The position numbers and the translations under genes were made by a program. The notes under the pieces are model-generated. The model was not told the origin of the DNA. It saw only the letters and a program-made list of their open reading frames with translations, and did not search any database. From Vishniacozyma victoriae (Eukaryota > Basidiomycota > Tremellomycetes > Tremellales > Bulleribasidiaceae), in contig JADPYG010000007.1 in NCBI GenBank assembly GCA_017654735.1, forward strand, positions 124,001 to 188,000: a stretch of 64,000 nucleotides of DNA, written 5' to 3'. Within the stretch, counting starts at the first letter, position 1. Each line of letters begins with the position of its first letter. Shown here piece after piece: positions 6,763 to 55,086 of the stretch.

Positions 6763-9700
6763 TTATGATAAAGTTATGCGTTCCCCAGATCCAGACCCAG
6801 ACCCCGATCCACTCGATCTAGACCGTTCCTTCAATTCCATCGAGGTCCCCAGTTCATCACCATTGATGACAATATCCGGCATATGCGCCACGTACCCTTT
6901 CTCCGATACTGGCCAAGCCCATCCTGATGATTTCCTCCGCCCTATTGGAGTTACTGACCATTTCGGATCTAACCATCGGCGCATGACGCGGGGTTGCCAT
7001 GCTGCTGGAATGAGGACTGATACTCCATATAGCGCTACCATGACTTTTAATGCTTGTCGTATTGTTCCAGTCGGGTCCGGGTTGAGAGTGACCACTCCGT
7101 AGGTTACACTTGGCCATACTGCCCCACCCGAGATCGCCATGGTAAGAATGGAAGAAGCGAGTTTGGTATTATGCCCTTGATTCCTCAAAGTCATGGCGAA
7201 TAGAAGTGGAAAGATGGCTGATTCGAAGAAAACCGTCAAAAGCAACATCGTCAATGGCGCGTTTCCGCGTGGCAATAATAGTCCAAGGAGGGAAGTAATA
7301 AACGCCCCCGATATCGAGATGGCGAGTAATATTCGAGGTGGGATACCGAGGTAGGCAAAGAATGAAATTAAGAACCGACCAAAAGCGAATAATCCATGCG
7401 AAATGGCACTGTTCCAAAATGAATCGGTCCCCGGTTTGACGGCTTGCATACTCTCGTCCCAGAAGTACGAGACTGATTCCTGCGCGCCGACATAGAGGAA
7501 CATGGCAAGTGCACCGGTAGCGAGAGCAAAATGGCCAAGCTTGAATTTCTTGAATATCCGATCCTCGTGATCCAATCCAGCGAGATCCATTCGTTGTAAT
7601 GCCACTGTTTCGAGGTCGGCATCGGAAGCTTCGGAGAGTGGGACGTAGAAGAAGACGACGGCGAGAAAGGTAACGAAAAGCGCAACGGCGAGATAACACC
7701 ATTGAACCCTAAATAAGTCGATCCCTTCCACTCTCTGGAACAGCGCTTTCTGAGCGAGTATAGGCGAGCTGAATCCTCCAATAGCTTGGATACCCTGGGC
7801 GAAACAGAGCCTAGCTTCCGACATTCGACCAGGGCCAGCGATGGTGATGAATGGATTAGCAGCGATTTCCAGTACACTCAGACCACATGCTATCATGAAG
7901 TTTGAAATAAAGAATCCAGCGTATGACCGAAGAACGGATGAGGGCCAGAATGCCATGGCGCCACATGCGTAAATGGCCAGTCCCGTCATGAATGCTGCCT
8001 TGAATCCGGAGCGGGTGAGGACCCAATGGCCAATAGCGGGTGGGCCGATGAGGTATCCAAGCCAATATGCGTTATGCAGTGCGATAGATCGAGCGGGCGA
8101 GATGGAAAGGAGATTAATGATTTCGCTGTTGAGTGTTCCGAGTAGTCCATATGCGAATCCCCATAGGAAGAATAGAATGGATACTTGTTCGTCAGCCCAT
8201 TGTCTGGATCAGGAACAGACAGGACTTACCAAAAAGTATCGGCCACCAAGCCTCCCTCGCCGACAACTCTGTCAAAGGCTTAGTCCCGTTCATATTGACG
8301 AAATCGAAAAAGTTCTGCGTCGGTTCCTGGGTAGGATCAACACTCTCCTTTCTAGTTCGGGTACTAATCATAGTAGCATGTCTGGTAAATTTCCGGCTCA
8401 GATTCGACATGGTAGCCTTCGGATCCATAGGGGGCGCAGGAGGAACTTCGGTAGTGGGTGAAATCAATTCTGTCGGGAAAGCAAGGGGAGCGACCGTGTT
8501 AGGCAGAGTGACATGCCTTGGTGCCGCGCTTGTTTGAGGATCGGCAGCTAGCATTTGGAAGAAATCCATTCCGTCTTCCTCATCTTCATCTCCTATTCCC
8601 GGGACTGATGGTGATTCGAGAATAGTTCCCATATTGGGGTTGGGCGACATTTTATCCTTGCTCGTCATTTCCGGAGTGATTTGCGCCATTGACATTTGTG
8701 ATCTCGTTCCTCCTCCCATCAAACTAAGTGACCTCAGTCTCCCTCCACTAATATTTCCATCTCCAGTGACATTACCCCTCGATCCAGTGATATGAGAAAT
8801 CGAAATCGAATTTCGATGACTATGCAGTAAGATCGGTACTACTTTCATAATCAATGGTTTGAGGACCAAGACGCAACAACACATCAATCCCACACTAACT
8901 TCCACAGCGGACCACATGAGACTGAAACTTGCGTGATATGTGAAATCTTTCGATTTAGTCGCTATAGCAGTATTGTCTGCTCCTATCGAGTTGATCCCTC
9001 CATCTCCAGTTGAAGCTAGGACTTCCTCTTTGAGGGCATCTTGTAGATATGCGATCCTGATAACATCGACGATCGTAACGAAAGCCCCAACCGTGAATGT
9101 AGCGACTAATGCGACTTTTTGGCGAAACTCTAATCGTAATCTCGTAAGAATCGGTAATGGTAATAATAAAATGGCGAGATCGGTAAGAACATTGATAGGT
9201 GCCGAAGATAGATAAAGTGATACGACATCAATACAAGTCCCTGTATCTCGATCGAAAGCGGCTCGGACAGGTCGGCATTGGAAGAGATTCAAAAAGGTAA
9301 GGACGATACCGGCGGTATTGACTACTCCAAGTGTAGCATATGAGGCGTAACGGAGGAAAGGGTGTGCAGCGGCCATTCGGATATAGAGGAGTAAGATTGC
9401 TGTTTTCGTAGCCATAAGTGCCGGGTTGTAGAGTACCGTGACTGCGTATATTGATTTCTTGAGTGTCATTGCATCTTCAGGTCTGATCTCTGGGACGTCA
9501 GTATATCATTATATGTCATAGTATAGTGACGCACCGGAATCAGGAGCACCTAAACCAAATTTTGCTCCTACCATAATCGACGTACTTAATCCCATCATCA
9601 ACACCTACCTCGTCAGCACTGCCTCAATATGACGTGGTGTGACTTACCCAGGCGATAATAGTAAACACATCATCCGAGTTGTTCCTCTTGACCACTATCC

Positions 9701-9809
9701 ATTTCGACGTTATCCTCAATCCAACAAATACAGTAGCCACAACGGCAAGTACCAATGTGACATTGAAAACAACAGTCGCACGACTATGTAAAATCTCCAC
9801 CTCGCTCAT
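6763..9809 (-). CDS. Fusion of a fungal rhodopsin-type 7-helix domain with an FHS-family (L-fucose permease type) MFS transporter
   Basis: Exons are 9809-9648, 9604-9535, 9489-8230 and 8183-6763, predicting 970 aa. Residues ~1-270 are a seven-helix fungal rhodopsin-like domain (FVGLRI, KTAILLLYIRM, FQCRPVRAAF, LPILTRLRL), a family known from fungal integral membrane proteins. A ~190-residue disordered cytosolic-type linker follows. At REAWWPILF the frame crosses a 46-bp intron (8229-8184, branch GCTGAC, acceptor AAG) into SILFFLWGFAYGLL, the standard start of FHS sugar permeases, then about 470 residues of MFS. REAxxPI just before FFLWGFAYG is itself typical of FHS transporters, so the permease is split by the intron and complete only in the fusion. 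The tail has an alternating Ser-Gly run. Substrate unknown; sugar/H+ symport is inferred. Confidence 0.8.
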
Positions 9810-10556: not shown

Positions 10557-13500
10557 CTAAGCACCCATACTTTTCCTAGATTGCCTTCCCCTCTCTTTCT
10601 GCCGCCTTGCAGCTCGTACCAAGTTCCTCAGAGCTATTCGTAATCGATCACCAGTGGGGTTTGACAAGTATCTAGCAATCAGCTCCTATCCAATTTACGA
10701 GTATCGCGAAAGATCCATCCGTTCTCGCTTCGACCCTAGCGGGTCTAAGACTCACTCGTGTAATTCTCCCATAAATACCCCCCGATCATTGACCGGAACC
10801 ACATTTCCCCCAACTCCACTTAACGCTTCACCCACATACCCCTCCCCATCACTCCCACAAACTCCAAGAGTTCCAACTAAAATCCGTTCAATCTCCTCCA
10901 TTGAATCTTCCGGGAAATCCTGTATTAACCCCTGTAATACAAGGGTGATTATACCTTTACCATATTGTTGGAAAATAGGTGATAATGTTGGGTTCGGTAG
11001 TGATTGTGCGAGTTTGGCGAGGACGTCTAGGGATATTCTGATGATTGAGGGTGAGGGGCATGAGAGCGAGGATAGGACATGGGTTATGGCTAGGGGGAGT
11101 GAGGGGAGGGAGAGTGTGAGGGAGGGGGTTGTGGTGAGGTACGACATTAGAAGGTGGGAGTAGTCGTCCATTACTGCTAGTTAGCTTTGTTGAGCGGAAC
11201 GAGACGCAGCGGAGTGGGTAGGAGCCGAGCGACATCGGAAGCCGGTGGAGGCATCTGGGGATCTACATCTAGCGAGACGTGCTCGACAGCTGGGCCGAGA
11301 CCTTCTCCGGTATGGCGAATTGAGGAGATCGGATGATGGAAGGATTACAAGAAAGTAAATGGAGATGGAACAAGGATTCTGAAAGATGAGGAAAGAAAAG
11401 GACTCACCATCAGGCATCTCAACAGCAGTCTTCTCCCCCAACCTCCTCCCCAATACCTGGGTAACTTTCTCGAAAGCCCCACCCAACAAACCAGCCAACG
11501 CATCTCCTCCAGGCCCAATAGCAGCCTCTCCAAATTTAGAAGTAACCTTCCCAATAATCCATAAATAACATGCGAACCCTGTCTCGTCGAAACAACTTGC
11601 CATCCGTTCCATTAGAGGTTGTAATACCGGCTGAAGAGCTTCTGGTGGAAAGAAAGCCAGACCGCGTCTGATTGTTGAGGAAAGTCTGTCGGAAATGAAA
11701 TAAGTTTTAGAGTGGTTTTGGAGGAGTGTATCGAATATCCCATAGACTGCTGCGGCTGTTGGGTAACATGATGCTGGGAAAGGTGATAATGTTCGGATCG
11801 GGGTCAAGAGTGAATCCAGTTGTTCAAGAGCGTCTGCTCGTCAGTGGACGCCTTATAGTGCTTGATCACTAGGGGGACTCACCAGCAACTTTCATCAACC
11901 CCTCTTTCCCTTCTGTCGGACTAGCAGCCTGAACCCTCTGCAACAAAGGTTGTGAGAACTGCTGCAATGCCTGCGCTCCCTCCTCGGCAGGCATACTCGA
12001 AACGACATATCCAATAGCTTCCATAACTTCAACCATATCGGCCTGTTCCAATTTATCCCCAACACTCCCCACAAAAGTATGTAATTGAGGCAAAAAGGGA
12101 ACCAAATGTAAATGACAATCCTGACACATGAATTTCATTGCCTGTGCCGCTGCTGCCGATACATTCTCGTCGGCAATTTCGAATCCGGCAGATACGTATT
12201 GTAATTGGAAAGCCAGATTTTGAGGATGTCGATTGATCCATTGTGTATAACGTGATATAACGAGGATAGCGGCGTATCGAATCCTAGGATGATCGGGTAG
12301 TTGAGGCAACATCTCCATGATATGCGGAAGCACCTCTTCATCATCATTATCGACTTCAGCACCCATGGATCGCATAGAGAATAAAGGAGCTTCAATCTCT
12401 TGCCATGATGGTGTTGGTTTCGATAAAGCAGAAGCGACCATGTCGAATGATTTCCGTAAACAGACAGTAGCCCCAAGGACATGACAACAGTCTTTCAACG
12501 TATCGCCCATTCGATGTCTAAACATTCTGAATTCGTCCCTCTCCTGTGCGGTTTGCTGTTCATCATCCCCTGGGAAATGAAGGCGGCTGATAATGACTGA
12601 TTGTAAATTTGCGTAAATGGCGAGTATAGGTTGGAATCTTGGATCTTGAGGTGTCCGACCAAGAGCAGTAGCGAGGTTGTACCAGAAATTAAAAGTGATT
12701 TGAACAATCTCCAAATCTTCATAGGCCGCACATTCCGCCACAGCTTCCACCAATGCCAGTAGATCATCCGGATGACGGGCGATTAAATCGGTATATGTTT
12801 CTCCGGCTTCACAGAATAATCGACAGTATCCACGTATACGATCCGCATCGTCGATATGGGTTTTCAGTTCCGGTCGTAGGGCCACTAAACGGGGGATGAT
12901 GATTTGGATGACATCGACATTGTCGTCAATCTCTTGCGTTTCGTGAATAAGGTCGCAGAGGAGGTCAACGGCTGAATCAAACAGTTCATCGGATGCGAGG
13001 GATGTGAATGCGCTTTCGAATAATGGCGTCTGGGCGACTTGGGAGGGAATGATTTCACCAGCGGCTAGCCAGGAGGAGAGTGTTTCGAAAATGGCCGTTG
13101 TGATTTGAGCCGTCAGACCTGATATCAGCTTCCCCTTTGCGCCGTGCGATAGACTCACCCTGAGCCTGGATATACATGGCAAGGACGCCCAACACACTCT
13201 CTGCATTCCCACTGATCATATGCGTTAAATTCGACCGAGCCTGTTCACTCTATTCATCAGCTCTCATCTCCTCTTTTGAATGTTCAACCTTGTGTCTTTC
13301 TTTCATGAGGAAAATGAAAGGAGTTAGATTAAAGCAAGTGAGTCACGTACCGAAATAGCAATCCTCGGATTCCCAGATTCCTCAACTAGACATTTCAAAA
13401 ATCCCAAAAGCACCCCTACGGTCCTCGCATCACTCCCAAATTGATCAATCATCCCTTGTACCACATTCTCCCATTCGGGCATCTGAATTGCCAAATCACT

Positions 13501-19791: not shown

Positions 19792-20071
19792 CTTGGCTAG
19801 AAGTTTCTCCTGATTATATAGCTCGAAGCGTTGAATGCGAGTGTCCTCTTATATGTTTCTATCGGTATATATGCCGTGAGGGTGATGCTAATGATGATCT
19901 AGTGATGTATAGTATAATGATCAACAGGTTGTAGGATGAGGAAGAAGTCGAGCATGAATCCATTGATCTGATAATAACACGTCATCATATCATTGAATCA
20001 ACTGAGTCAAAAGTCATTCCTATACCCATATCCATAACCGTATCCGTACCCTACCTATACCCACCCACACA

Positions 20072-21356
20072 ATGAGCAAGAGCTACAAGATCCACGTGCC
20101 AGCGACAACAGCAAACGTAGGACCAGGATTCGATGTTTGCGGTATCGCCCTCTCCTTAGCCCTCACGGTCGAAGTAACAATCCCTACTTCCCCTTACGAC
20201 AAAGATTTACTACCCGTAATCACCTACACCGGTCTCGACTCTTCAAATGTCCCCCTATCTCCTTACAAGAATTTGTTGACCCGAGTCGCACTCTACGTAT
20301 TACGATCACATAACATCACCACTTTCCCATCCGGAGTTCTTATCCACGCACACAATGAAATCCCCTTTGGCCGAGGATTAGGATCATCAGGAGCAGCAGT
20401 CATTGCTGGTGTTCTCCTCGGTGACCTACTCGGTAATCTGAAACTATCAAAAGGAAGATTACTCGATTTCGCATTAATGGTCGAACGACATCCGGATAAT
20501 GTAACCGCAGCATTAATTGGTGGATTCGTCGGATCATACCTCAAAGAATTATCACCAGAAGATACATCCGCAGCTTCAGTACCTTTAGCAGAAGTATTAC
20601 CCGAATACCCACCAGACGCAGGACCAAGCTGGGGACAGGATCCACCGAAAGCACCATTGGGGATTGGGCATTATATCAAATACGGATGGGCGAAGGAGAT
20701 CAAGGCTATTGCCGTTATGCCGAGGTTCGAGCTGGCTACGGCGAAAGCGAGGGGGGTACTACCAGATACATACTCCAGGCAGGATATGGTAAGTACCTAT
20801 AATATCTTCAACAATTCACAAGCTAATATCAGGTATTCAACTTGCAACGACTGGCGGTATTGACGACTGCTTTGGCTAGATCACCACCAGACCCAGAACT
20901 CATCTTTGAGGCAATGAAGGATAAGATCCATCACCCATACCGAATGCCACTGGTACGTTTATCAGTTCCTTAAGATAACCTACATCTCCATCACCATCAC
21001 TGTCACCATCAATACCCAGACTACATTGCCTAGGACCCAGAGTAGTCACCCGCCCACGCACACAGATACCCAGCCAATTCTAGCCGCAGCTCGTACCCTC
21101 GCTCTTCACGCGGGAAATCGCTAACAACCAGATCCCCGGCCTGCCCAAAATCCTATCAACCCTAACACCCACAACCCACCCGGGTCTCCTAGGAATCTGC
21201 CTCTCAGGAGCAGGTCCAACAATCTTAGCTCTAGCCACGGAGAACTTTGATGGGATCGCGGAAGAAATTATCAGGTTGTTCAAGGAGGAGAATGTTGAAG
21301 TTGATTGGGAGTTGTTGGAAGTTGATGAGCGGGGTAGTTGGGTTGAGGAATTGTAG
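20072..21356 (+). CDS. THR1: Homoserine kinase
   Basis: GHMP-fold kinase that phosphorylates L-homoserine with ATP, the step before threonine synthase in threonine synthesis. Exons are 20072-20788, 20833-20952 and 21084-21356 (369 aa). Motif 1 is PATTANVGPGFDVCG near the N-terminus. The ATP-binding GHMP loop is PFGRGLGSSGAA. The C-terminal motif is GLLGICLSGAGPTILAL. The last intron (131 bp) is longer than usual here. Length and motif order match fungal enzymes, so function is secure. Confidence 0.96.
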
Positions 21357-22722: not shown

Positions 22723-24450
22723 TTATCGCAACAACGCGGTTCTCTCGTTCACCTCCTCGTCACCTCCCACTTGATCATCATCATCGCCTTTCTCAATAGT
22801 AAGCTGATGAGGTAAACAAGCACTAATCATCAAAGTCAAGCAAGCGATGATCATGGACCAGATCCAAACGATCTGTCTCCCGAGCGTTCCAGCGAGGTAT
22901 TGGCTAGAGAGAACGAAAAGGCGACTGATTTCAGCTACTGGACATTTGATGCGCATACCTAGATCCAGCGACTCCGAGTATACAGCCCAGATTACCACTT
23001 TGTTCCAGTATCCCAGCTGCAATAGCCCGATCAGCTGGATTGGGGTACAGGGCGACAGTCAGCGAGCCTCGTAGTCTATCATAAGCCATGATCAGCTCTC
23101 AAAGGGATGATATACGCCCACCAAGTCATACCGACCGCATGACCGATATACCAAAGAACATAAATTGGTGTCTGTCGCGGTACATTTGCGATCTGAGTGG
23201 CTATTGGGAAGAAGATCGCTGGAAGCAGCCATGCCGACGAGGAGATTATGAGGATGGCTCGAGTCGATACTTTATCCGAGTAAAGTGGGAACAGGAAGAT
23301 TAAATTGATCGAAGTGAGTAAGGGGGTGAGGAAGAGGATCGTTCCGATCGTCGGGACCTGCTTCATCAGGAACAATCTTGGCTTTATTGGGGACTTACAC
23401 TCAGACCTCCTAATTCCGGAGACAATTTCCCAGCTGTCGACTATTGGTTAGCTAGATGAATCGGCAATGAGTATGGAGATATATACCATCAACGAAAGGC
23501 ATGTAAAGAAACATGCTTTGTTCACTAGATGTCAACACCCTAGCCCATCGGGTGGCTCGGTGTACTCACAAAGGTCAACGATGTTTAGGTTCCAGAATCG
23601 AATGTCTAGCCATAGGTCCTTGAGAGTAATGGATCCCTCACTATCCGCTAACAATGGCTCATTCTCTTGATCTTCCGTCGATGCAAGGACCTTGTTACAA
23701 TACTCTCGGTTCGTCTTTGAATCAGCAACATCCATATTCCTGTCTGACGACTCACCTCAGGAACAAAGAGCCAAATCGCAAAAGCACAAAGTACGGTCAA
23801 AACGCACATAGTCAATCCAGGAGCAATATAAGGCCTGTCCCTAAACATCTCTATTCTTCCCAAGAATGGAACCCGACCAACAGGCTCAGCCAGATACCCA
23901 CCAACCATAGATCCAAGCATAGCACCCAAGAACGTAGCCGAGGCAAATAATGAAAACGCTTGTCCTCCTCCTCCTCCTTCTTCTTTCTTTACCACCTCAC
24001 CCAAAGCTATGCTTGCTAGAAACCCCCCAAAACTGAAGAGGGCGGTAAGAGATCTCAAGAGGAGGATATGCCAGATTTGGTTGGAGAATCCCATCAACGA
24101 AGCGACTGCGCCGCTGAGGAGAAGGGAGGTGATCATCAAATATCGATGCGGGAACCATTGGATCACCTTGATGTGCTGGATATTAGCCTTCTTTGTTACC
24201 TTGGTAGCTGTGAGACTGACTAGGGGTAGGAAGATAAGATCACCAAATGATACTAGACTTTCTGCTAGACCGGAGTATGTCGCCACTTTCTCAGGGGGGA
24301 CATCGAGAGAGAGCAGAACTTTCATCAGATTGATTAAAGAGTTGACTTACAAGCAGCAATGAATGGGAATGTGTGGGTGCTAAGCGCGATGATTAGGCAT
24401 TGGACTGCGCAGAGAGCTAGAACTGAAGATAGTAGTGTTCTTGACAGCAT
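22723..24450 (-). CDS. MFS transporter, tandem paralogue 1 of 3
   Basis: Twelve-helix major facilitator, many exons. The start MLSRTLLSSVLALCAVQ at 24450 is a membrane helix, ending in FPFIAA at the first intron. The central exon (about 24325-23750) has the conserved block GGYLAEPVGRVPFLGRIEMF..RPYIAPGL, shared with paralogues 2 and 3, then a helix ending in FVPE. A cytosolic loop carries an acidic stretch with EPLL. The C-terminus is acidic and ends NERTALLR, an [DE]xxxLL-like vacuolar or endosomal sorting tail. The fold resembles the TetA/ZIFL-type branch of MFS, but the usual D-R-x-GRR loop is not clear. Substrate unknown. Confidence 0.7.
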
Positions 24451-53328: not shown

Positions 53329-55086
53329 ATGATTCAACATCTTCAAGGTATCACCAAACATGGCGTAGCATGTATGCTGCTCGCGTCCATCGGAGCCATC
53401 CTCTTTGTATGTTCATCGGGTCTCCACTGGGACACAGTGCTGACGTTCAGGGTTTTGATAATGGTTGGTGGGGAACGATCTTAGGTTCTCCGAGATTCCT
53501 CAAAGACTACGGCTCTTGTGCCATGGTTGAGGGGGTCGAGGTATGCAACCTTTCCACCCCTCAGCTTTCGGCGGGAAGTTCAGTCCAGTCTGCTGGAATC
53601 AGTAAGCCTACGCTGGTGAGACGTATCTGACAAGACAGTGGTTGGATGCTTGATGGCAGCCTATATCAACAACATTATCGGTCGTCGATGGTCCCTTGTT
53701 TTAAGCGCCATTATCTCTCTCACCGGGGTCACCATCGAGGCAACCAGTGCCATCGGCAGTCCGGCCCGGTACACTCAATTTGTGGTCGGCAAGGTCATTG
53801 CATCGATCGCCATGGGTATGGTGGTGAACATTGTTCCTGTCTACCTATCAGAGACTTCTCCTCCAGCAGCTCGAGGATTCGCCATCAGTCTATACCAGAA
53901 TGTTCAAATTATCGGTGTCATTGTGGCCGCCGGATGTGTCTTTGCGACTTCTGTCCGAAACGATCCTTCCTCATATCTCATCCCAATGTGTGTACAAGCT
54001 ATCGCCCCTGGTATCATGCTGCTGGTTACTCCCCTTATCCCCGAAAGTCCCAGGTGGCTCGTTCTGAAAGGGTAAGTCGCTGAAGACGATCTGCCTTGAG
54101 TCAAACCCCTGACATGTAGTCGTATGCCCGAGGCTCAACTGGCATCCCAGAAGCTCTTCGGTACCAACGGTTTCGATCCAGAGGAGTACTGCACCAAGCT
54201 AGCTATCGCTTTCGAGGAAGAGAAACAGACCGAAAGCTCGACATCTTGGGCCGACTTGCTCCGAAACCCGGACCGACGACGTCTTTTGATCGCTGTCGGA
54301 ATACAGTGTCTTCAACAAGCACAAGGATCGTCCTACATGAACTCATATGTGGTATCGTTCCTGCAAAGCAATGGTATCACCAACGTGTTCCCTGTCATCA
54401 TGGGGCTCTACTCGCTTTACTATGTCGCGATTCTCACCGGTCATTTCCTTCCGGACATGTACGGTCGAAGGATCATTTTGATGACGACTGGTGCTTTCTG
54501 TGCCGCTTGTTTGATCATCGTGGCAATCATGACCACTGTCATTACCGTGCCAACCAAAACGACTGCCAACGCTGCCATCGCCCTCATTTTTCTCTGGGAA
54601 TTCTCGTTCGGAGTCCAATCACCACTCATTTGGATTGTCACCGCCGAGTCGGCTCCCACCAGGAACCGAGAGAAGGTGCTATCCATGGCTACCTTCTGGG
54701 GGTTTGGAGTATCCCTTCTCATCACTTCGGTCTCGCCTTACCTTCAGAATGAAGGTTATGGGAATCTCGGCAGCAAGATTGTAAGTACCTCATATTGCGC
54801 CAGATACGAAGAATCCGCTGACGGCAAGGGCTTTATCTGGGGAGCGTTCTCGGTCGTCACGGTTGTTTGGGTCTTCTTCATCGTCCCGGAGTGTAAAGGT
54901 TTCTCGCTGGAGCAATTGGATCATCTCTTTGCCGAAAACGTCCCGACAAGGGCTTTCGGTTCGTACAAGTTCACGGACGATGTCCTATCGGTTGCGGTCA
55001 AGGAAGGGGATGAGGAGGCCGCAGGTATAGATAAGGATGAGAAAGACTTGTCGAGCACATATGTCCAGGGGTTGGACCAGAAGTAG
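53329..55086 (+). CDS. MFS sugar transporter (hexose/disaccharide porter family)
   Basis: Starts MIQHLQGITKHGVACMLLASIG; twelve helices. Sugar-porter signatures are GFDNGWWGTILG in helix 1, NNIIGRRWSLVL (GRR loop), VPVYLSETSPPAARG (PESPR-type PET site between helices 4 and 5) and LIPESPRWLVLKG. In the second half come IQCLQQAQGSSYMNSY (QQ motif), MYGRRIILM and FFIVPECKGFSLEQLDHLF. An in-frame intron at 54781-54828 (48 bp, GTAAGT, branch CTGAC, AAG) contains no stop, so the open frame reads through it; removing it restores the expected helix 10-11 loop. It probably imports mono- or disaccharides released by the neighbouring hydrolases. Confidence 0.9.

Follow-up and report, generated by a model that had tools for sequence, protein, structure and literature searches.

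Fungal receptors of the Pth11 and Pth11-like kind, class XIV of the G protein-coupled receptors (GPCRs), are listed with the Pfam domains PF20684 and CFEM (PF05730) in a 2026 review (PMC13308352), in whose main text a term search for MFS (major facilitator superfamily) gave no hit. Passages of a second paper term the Pth11-like receptors exclusive to Pezizomycotina, and its table gives CFEM for the class (PMC12842992). For the FHS transporter FucP, Asp46 has been tied, in the part of its literature drawn on here, to proton-dependent active transport, and Glu135 is described there as a site of protonation and of substrate. Receptor and transporter usually come as separate genes or as one dual-function protein. 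Here we describe a gene from Vishniacozyma victoriae (Tremellomycetes), located in a stretch of 64,000 nucleotides (assembly GCA_017654735.1, contig JADPYG010000007.1, positions 124,001 to 188,000; the window), which joins a PF20684 seven-transmembrane (7TM) domain to an FHS permease within one protein, a fusion of which we found no description in the open-access literature (description elsewhere is possible). This covalent pairing ties orphan PF20684 receptors to sugar, and its product may act as a built-in receptor-transporter, transceptor-like and not proton-driven in this lineage.

Structure of the fusion gene

The gene lies on the minus strand of the window and is composed of four exons separated by three short introns:

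6763..9809, minus strand: whole gene, 4 exons, 970 amino acids
9648..9809, minus strand: exon 1, with the ATG at 9809, transmembrane helix 1 (TM1) and the start of TM2
9605..9647, minus strand: intron 1, 43 bp, GTAAGT..TAG, with CTGACG near its 3' end
9535..9604, minus strand: exon 2
9490..9534, minus strand: intron 2, 45 bp, GTGCGT..CAG, with CTGACG near its 3' end
8230..9489, minus strand: exon 3, the remaining 7TM domain, the entire linker and REAWWPILF
8184..8229, minus strand: intron 3, 46 bp, phase 1, donor GTAAGT, acceptor AAG, connecting linker to permease
6763..8183, minus strand: exon 4, permease and C-terminal tail, with the stop TAA at 6765-6763

The joined exons amount to 970 codons with a sole stop at the end, and an in-frame stop lies closely upstream of the start ATG. 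The one gene that the preliminary description had placed here is therefore borne out in coordinates, strand and single open frame. CTGACG begins 12 nt before the end of each of the three introns. Among the GT..AG pairs that enclose 30-120 nt in the region 8100-8300, four keep the linker and permease frames joined without a stop; only one of these carries a GTAAGT donor, and the same pair is the sole one yielding the reading REAxxPIxxVSILFFLWGFAYG of the relatives. This pair is the phase-correct 46-bp intron proposed from the sequence at the outset. The permease helix motif FFLWGFAYG does stand near its acceptor, not directly after it as had been written but behind about four residues (V-S-I-L), and the permease is indeed complete only once spliced, its REAWWPI run-in being encoded by exon 3 and the rest by exon 4.

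The closest relatives, P0001 and P0002, display 94% and 91% identity, respectively, in alignments that cover 67% and 62% of the query. In both proteins as deposited, a 45-nt stretch at the intron 3 site is translated into 15 residues, reading GKSCLILIQMMADCE in P0001 and GKYYWPLVQMMADLV in P0002, whereas the flanks agree exactly with those of the window protein (34 residues before, 23 after). Because the read-through peptide diverges while its flanks are identical, we take the 45-nt stretch to be an intron in these relatives as well.

Two adjacent genes, a 7TM gene with its own stop and a permease with its own start, could in principle have been joined wrongly through a model artefact or read-through. 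Consistent with this, the raw DNA has the two halves in separate open reading frames (ORFs), and many of the relatives entered the database in separate pieces. Against it, the exon 3 ORF alone runs through the 7TM domain, the linker and the permease run-in, the splice consensus is good, and identical domain order and linker motifs occur in both phyla that carry the fusion (see below). Relative P0089 has both domains and a coding length of 2496 nt, while its contig measures only 2693 nt, and separate pieces lie on contigs of equal length (P0123 and P0248, 94049; P0129 and P0255, 100295), so that they look like single models split at introns. We accordingly regard two separate genes as very unlikely, and the gene structure makes the 7TM-permease fusion near certain.

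The domains and positions discussed below are as follows:

8846..9719, introns included, minus strand: Fung_rhodopsin (PF20684) domain, residues 31-292, with seven helices and helix 8 modelled in a homologue
8252..8845, minus strand: linker, residues 293-490, mostly unconserved and of low confidence (disordered) in the P0003 model
8549..8575, minus strand: linker motif A, DGMDFFQML, read as MMDFLTTP in many ascomycete rows; the P0003 model has a short linker helix
8291..8311, minus strand: linker motif B, FFDFVNM, which recurs in the two phyla
8237..8257, minus strand: REAWWPI, run-in to permease TM1
6961..8257, intron 3 included, minus strand: FHS/FucP-type permease core, residues 489-905, based on the profile and FucP matches together with a homologue model
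8137..8139, minus strand: Gly513, position of FucP Asp46 (HMMER alignment ungapped over the first helix)
7867..7869, minus strand: Glu603, position of FucP Glu135 (alignment to FucP)

The 7TM half matches Fung_rhodopsin across the entire profile (E=3e-53, 181.2 bits vs a cut-off of 27). In a Pfam scan of the 970 amino acids at E≤1, PF20684 and MFS_1 were the only matches, with neither an opsin family nor CFEM (PF05730) among them; a search of the genome for CFEM also gave nothing, but its controls were equally silent, and it is no evidence of absence. The seven-helix fungal rhodopsin-like domain of the preliminary description is thus retained as a PF20684 domain, "rhodopsin" being merely the Pfam name, and a role as opsin or light sensor was rejected because no opsin family of Pfam matched.

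The structure models used are of two homologues, P0246 and P0003, rather than of the window protein itself. The modelled homologue bundle appears GPCR-like, with seven helices and helix 8. We assigned helices from these models rather than from a hydropathy scan, which recovered 6 of 7 helices in the receptor and 8 of 12 in the permease; a "viral" fold search returned chiefly MFS-type and other viral membrane proteins and was uninformative. Conserved residues include a Cys pair (C149/C163) in what would be an extracellular loop, as well as Lys or Arg at 32, 36, 124, 196, 200 and 202 in would-be cytosolic loops. A 7TM domain has its C-terminal tail in the cytosol, as an MFS domain has its N-terminus, and with both ends to be joined on the same side the topology would allow such a tether.

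The permease half was matched to FucP (3o7q, E=1.2e-26, residues 493-860) and to the FHS models TIGR00885 (E=1e-36) and TIGR01272 (E=7.9e-25). It missed the fucP equivalog cut-off of TIGR00885 by far (127 vs 280.4 bits), so that of the earlier term "FHS sugar permease" the FHS/FucP-like homology stands, whereas the identity of the sugar is not given by it. Specificity for L-fucose is not claimed in view of this missed cut-off, nor should it be assumed, since 68 of the 73 fusions compared below have Gln at the position of FucP Asn162.

Distribution and inheritance of the two domains

A search with the whole protein resulted in 123 matches at E≤0.001, and both Pfam domains were present in 109 of the 120 listed; the search scored the 7989 candidates sharing most words, and absence elsewhere is not implied. 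The same two-domain architecture, which the preliminary description had suggested looking for in other basidiomycetes, was found in Naematelia, Saitozyma, Kwoniella, Cryptococcus, Cryptotrichosporon, Filobasidium, Naganishia and a Tremellales isolate, all Tremellomycetes, and also in many Pezizomycotina; no group beyond these two was seen among the named matches listed. For comparison, 73 fusion rows were selected by source name from the match list, 32 of which we take to be Tremellomycete and 41 ascomycete (four lineages were looked up, the rest presumed). Cryptococcus amylolentus, C. depauperatus and two further Cryptococcus species carry the fusion; C. neoformans and C. gattii were not among the matches listed (with names shortened and part of the candidates scored), and the fusion may have been lost there. 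The deposited protein P0232 from Saitozyma podzolica combines an annotated CHAT domain with an FHS piece of the fusion family, representing either another fusion or a gene-model error.

Searches of single-domain length returned many apparent pieces of fusions and a few free-standing FHS proteins, for example from Aspergillus. In the genome from which the window comes, the FHS and PF20684 matches found belong to this gene except for a 59-residue fucP scrap; such match counts are lower bounds (as a control, the sugar-transporter family PF00083 was matched 10 times there). The scrap (G000:C11:2858094-2858285, E=0.005) is below the cut-off and possibly a remote MFS relative.

To follow the two halves, quick trees were built, of which only the permease tree was rooted with an outgroup. 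The permease tree comprised 50 of the 120 listed relatives, the window protein and five standalone proteins. A fully supported branch (100, starred) sets its 51 fused rows apart from the standalone ones, and the Tremellomycetes together with five further rows form a clade (100, starred); the split between Tremellomycetes and ascomycetes has a support of 97 (starred) in the 7TM tree. Comparing the trees for 42 relatives and the window protein, we found that permease and 7TM distances correlate with r=0.71 for 18 Tremellomycete rows and r=0.85 for 25 ascomycete rows, and none of 2000 permutations was as high in either case. These sequences are most simply explained by a single old fusion whose halves have since been inherited together. 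Tremellomycetes group together in both trees and, in the permease tree, are not nested within one ascomycete class; deep vertical descent with losses and one old transfer between the phyla are both compatible with such trees.

Conservation is similar in the two membrane halves. Over the 73 rows the mean column identity is 0.595 for the 7TM domain and 0.563 for the permease, and in 72 of them it is the 7TM half that shares the greater identity with the window protein; tree paths are slightly longer for the 7TM domain (1.90 vs 1.71 and 1.68 vs 1.60). The linker varies in length and has a mean column identity of 0.198 over the same rows. Two motifs recur in it in both phyla, though not in every row (26 rows inspected): motif A, an acidic-M-D-F patch (MMDFLTTPDM in many of the ascomycetes), and motif B, which stands ahead of the REA run-in. 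Searched as regular expressions, both were present in 24 of the 32 Tremellomycete and 30 of the 41 ascomycete rows, the patterns being loose and the counts an observation rather than a statistic. As judged from the topology, the cytosolic motifs could serve in docking of a partner or of either membrane domain.

The proton-coupling position and the proposed function

At the position of FucP Asp46, the 32 Tremellomycete fusions have Gly in 25, Ser in 2, Val in 2, Asn in 1 and a gap in 2, and in none of them Asp; the 41 ascomycete fusions have Asp in 30, Asn in 8, and Gln, Gly and Ser in 1 each. The position of Glu135, by comparison, is Glu in all 73. The window protein itself has the glutamate and lacks the aspartate of a FucP-type symporter. 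In a tree of 102 fused proteins (out of 121 aligned rows; at least 780 amino acids and letters at the test columns) and five standalone ones, calculated with the column masked, 55 of the 102 fusions are without Asp, which requires no fewer than 7 changes on the tree, starred branches forcing at least 5 of these. As a control, Asp occupies the position in all eight standalone FHS proteins (six from Aspergillus and two others). A second control consisted of bacterial FHS proteins, counted where the residue had no part in the pattern that found them: of 57 loci, 50 were readable (7 unread), and 25 of these, holding VTILFFLW and lacking the Asp-containing pattern, were counted, giving 23 Asp and 2 Pro, while the 25 that held or were fetched by the Asp-including pattern were left uncounted. 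Judging from these alignments, Asp is generally kept in FHS proteins and has been repeatedly replaced in the fusion family, the direction of change being read from the outgroups. Its repeated absence together with the kept Glu135 equivalent would fit sensor or transceptor action.

Loss of the residue important in FucP might also mark a functionless, decaying fusion gene in which Gly for Asp is damage. This we consider hardly credible, because the position is non-Asp, mostly Gly, in all 30 Tremellomycete fusions with a letter there, its surroundings are conserved, and the frame is open across 970 codons.

We propose an old two-module membrane protein in which a GPCR-like 7TM domain of the Pth11/PF20684 kind is followed by a cytosolic linker and a 12-TM FHS (FucP-type) sugar permease. 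The permease half would bind or move sugar without proton-driven accumulation, through facilitated diffusion, exchange or binding only, and the 7TM half with the linker would report the conformational state or the substrate of the permease to the cell, together making up a transceptor-like sugar sensor. We assign a probability of roughly 0.5 to such a built-in, transceptor-like receptor-transporter that is not proton-driven in this lineage, a reading drawn from sequence comparison: an open gene, co-inherited domains, linker motifs, a kept Glu135 and a lineage without Asp at the Asp46 position. A wider version, in which the fusions of Tremellomycetes and Pezizomycotina constitute one receptor-transporter family whose Pth11-type 7TM domain reads the permease, and in which the permease independently gave up proton coupling in Tremellomycetes, in a Leotiomycete/Sordariomycete clade and in some other lineages and became a sugar-sensing or passive module, is put forward more tentatively and may well be wrong.

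Several observations weigh against these proposals. The GPCR resemblance in Foldseek is weak, with 1 of 1304 matches at E≤0.001, and the VIA list is headed by a designed helical filament. Further conserved Lys or Arg residues (10, 106, 222 and 288) lie outside the loops used by the topology argument. Asp is kept in 47 of the 102 fusions, so coupling loss does not extend to the family as a whole. Residue 751, at or directly ahead of the first residue of TM8 as modelled for P0003, is Asp or Glu in 25 of the 32 Tremellomycete rows vs 9 of the 41 ascomycete rows and might substitute for Asp46 as proton carrier, which we doubt. The standalone sample is small and mostly from Aspergillus, and P0196 (443 amino acids, without PF20684) has Gly at the Asp46 position; it was excluded from the standalone set because its fusion-like run-in made it likely to be a piece of a fusion.

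The protein may alternatively be a sugar transporter whose 7TM half is regulatory or targeting, acting in folding, trafficking, turnover or gating with no receptor signalling of its own. This is a possible account to be taken seriously, if not the one we favor: conservation of the 7TM half on a par with the permease and its conserved polar and charged residues go beyond the need of a simple tether, and the repeated absence of the Asp46 equivalent would be odd in a plain uptake system.

Both halves of the protein belong to known families, and the sequences are public with both Pfam labels. What is new, going by the open-access literature searched, where neither is described, is that the two are covalently paired in a conserved way and that the proton residue was lost repeatedly. 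The fusion offers a direct handle on what orphan PF20684 receptors detect, and lineages naturally without the proton-coupling residue provide natural variants for separating transport from sensing. If the proposal is true, a family in which a receptor reads its permease would be a kind of nutrient sensor without counterpart in that literature.

The surroundings of the gene gave no support to a sugar gene cluster, a candidate rejected after eight neighbouring ORFs had been scanned, of which five had no Pfam match and three matched a TNPO3/IPO13-type importin, a GHMP kinase and an MFS piece. Features observed elsewhere in the window are:

11869-13215, minus strand: TNPO3/IPO13-type nuclear import receptor, upstream of and on the same strand as the fusion gene
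20006-20863, plus strand: GHMP kinase N-terminal domain
23648-24346, minus strand: a further MFS exon (MFS_1, E=1.1e-9)
53638-54930, plus strand: transporter of the Sugar_tr family (PF00083; E=1.9e-64), interrupted by two in-frame stops, probably introns

Comparison with known systems

Compared with the L-fucose:H+ symporter FucP of E. coli (FHS, MFS; 3o7q/3o7p), the window protein differs at the positions of Asp46 (Gly), Asn162 (Gln) and Tyr365 (Phe), adds a 7TM domain and falls below the fucP equivalog cut-off. With the Pth11 and Pth11-like GPCRs it shares PF20684 and possibly, as modelled in a homologue, a GPCR-like bundle, but it is without a CFEM match and is fused to a permease. The fusion occurs in Tremellomycetes, outside the range given for Pth11-like receptors in passages of PMC12842992, although the ranges are not strictly comparable since CFEM is listed for the class there. 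The nutrient transceptors of yeast, as presented in parts of PMC3824880, have the proposed joint sensing and transport in common with the window protein; there the transporter itself is the receptor, whereas here a separate 7TM module is attached to it. The fungal rhodopsin-guanylyl cyclase fusions, in the account given in sections of PMC12941744, likewise join a 7TM sensor to another functional module, a retinal opsin to an enzyme in their case and a non-opsin 7TM domain to a transporter in the protein described here.
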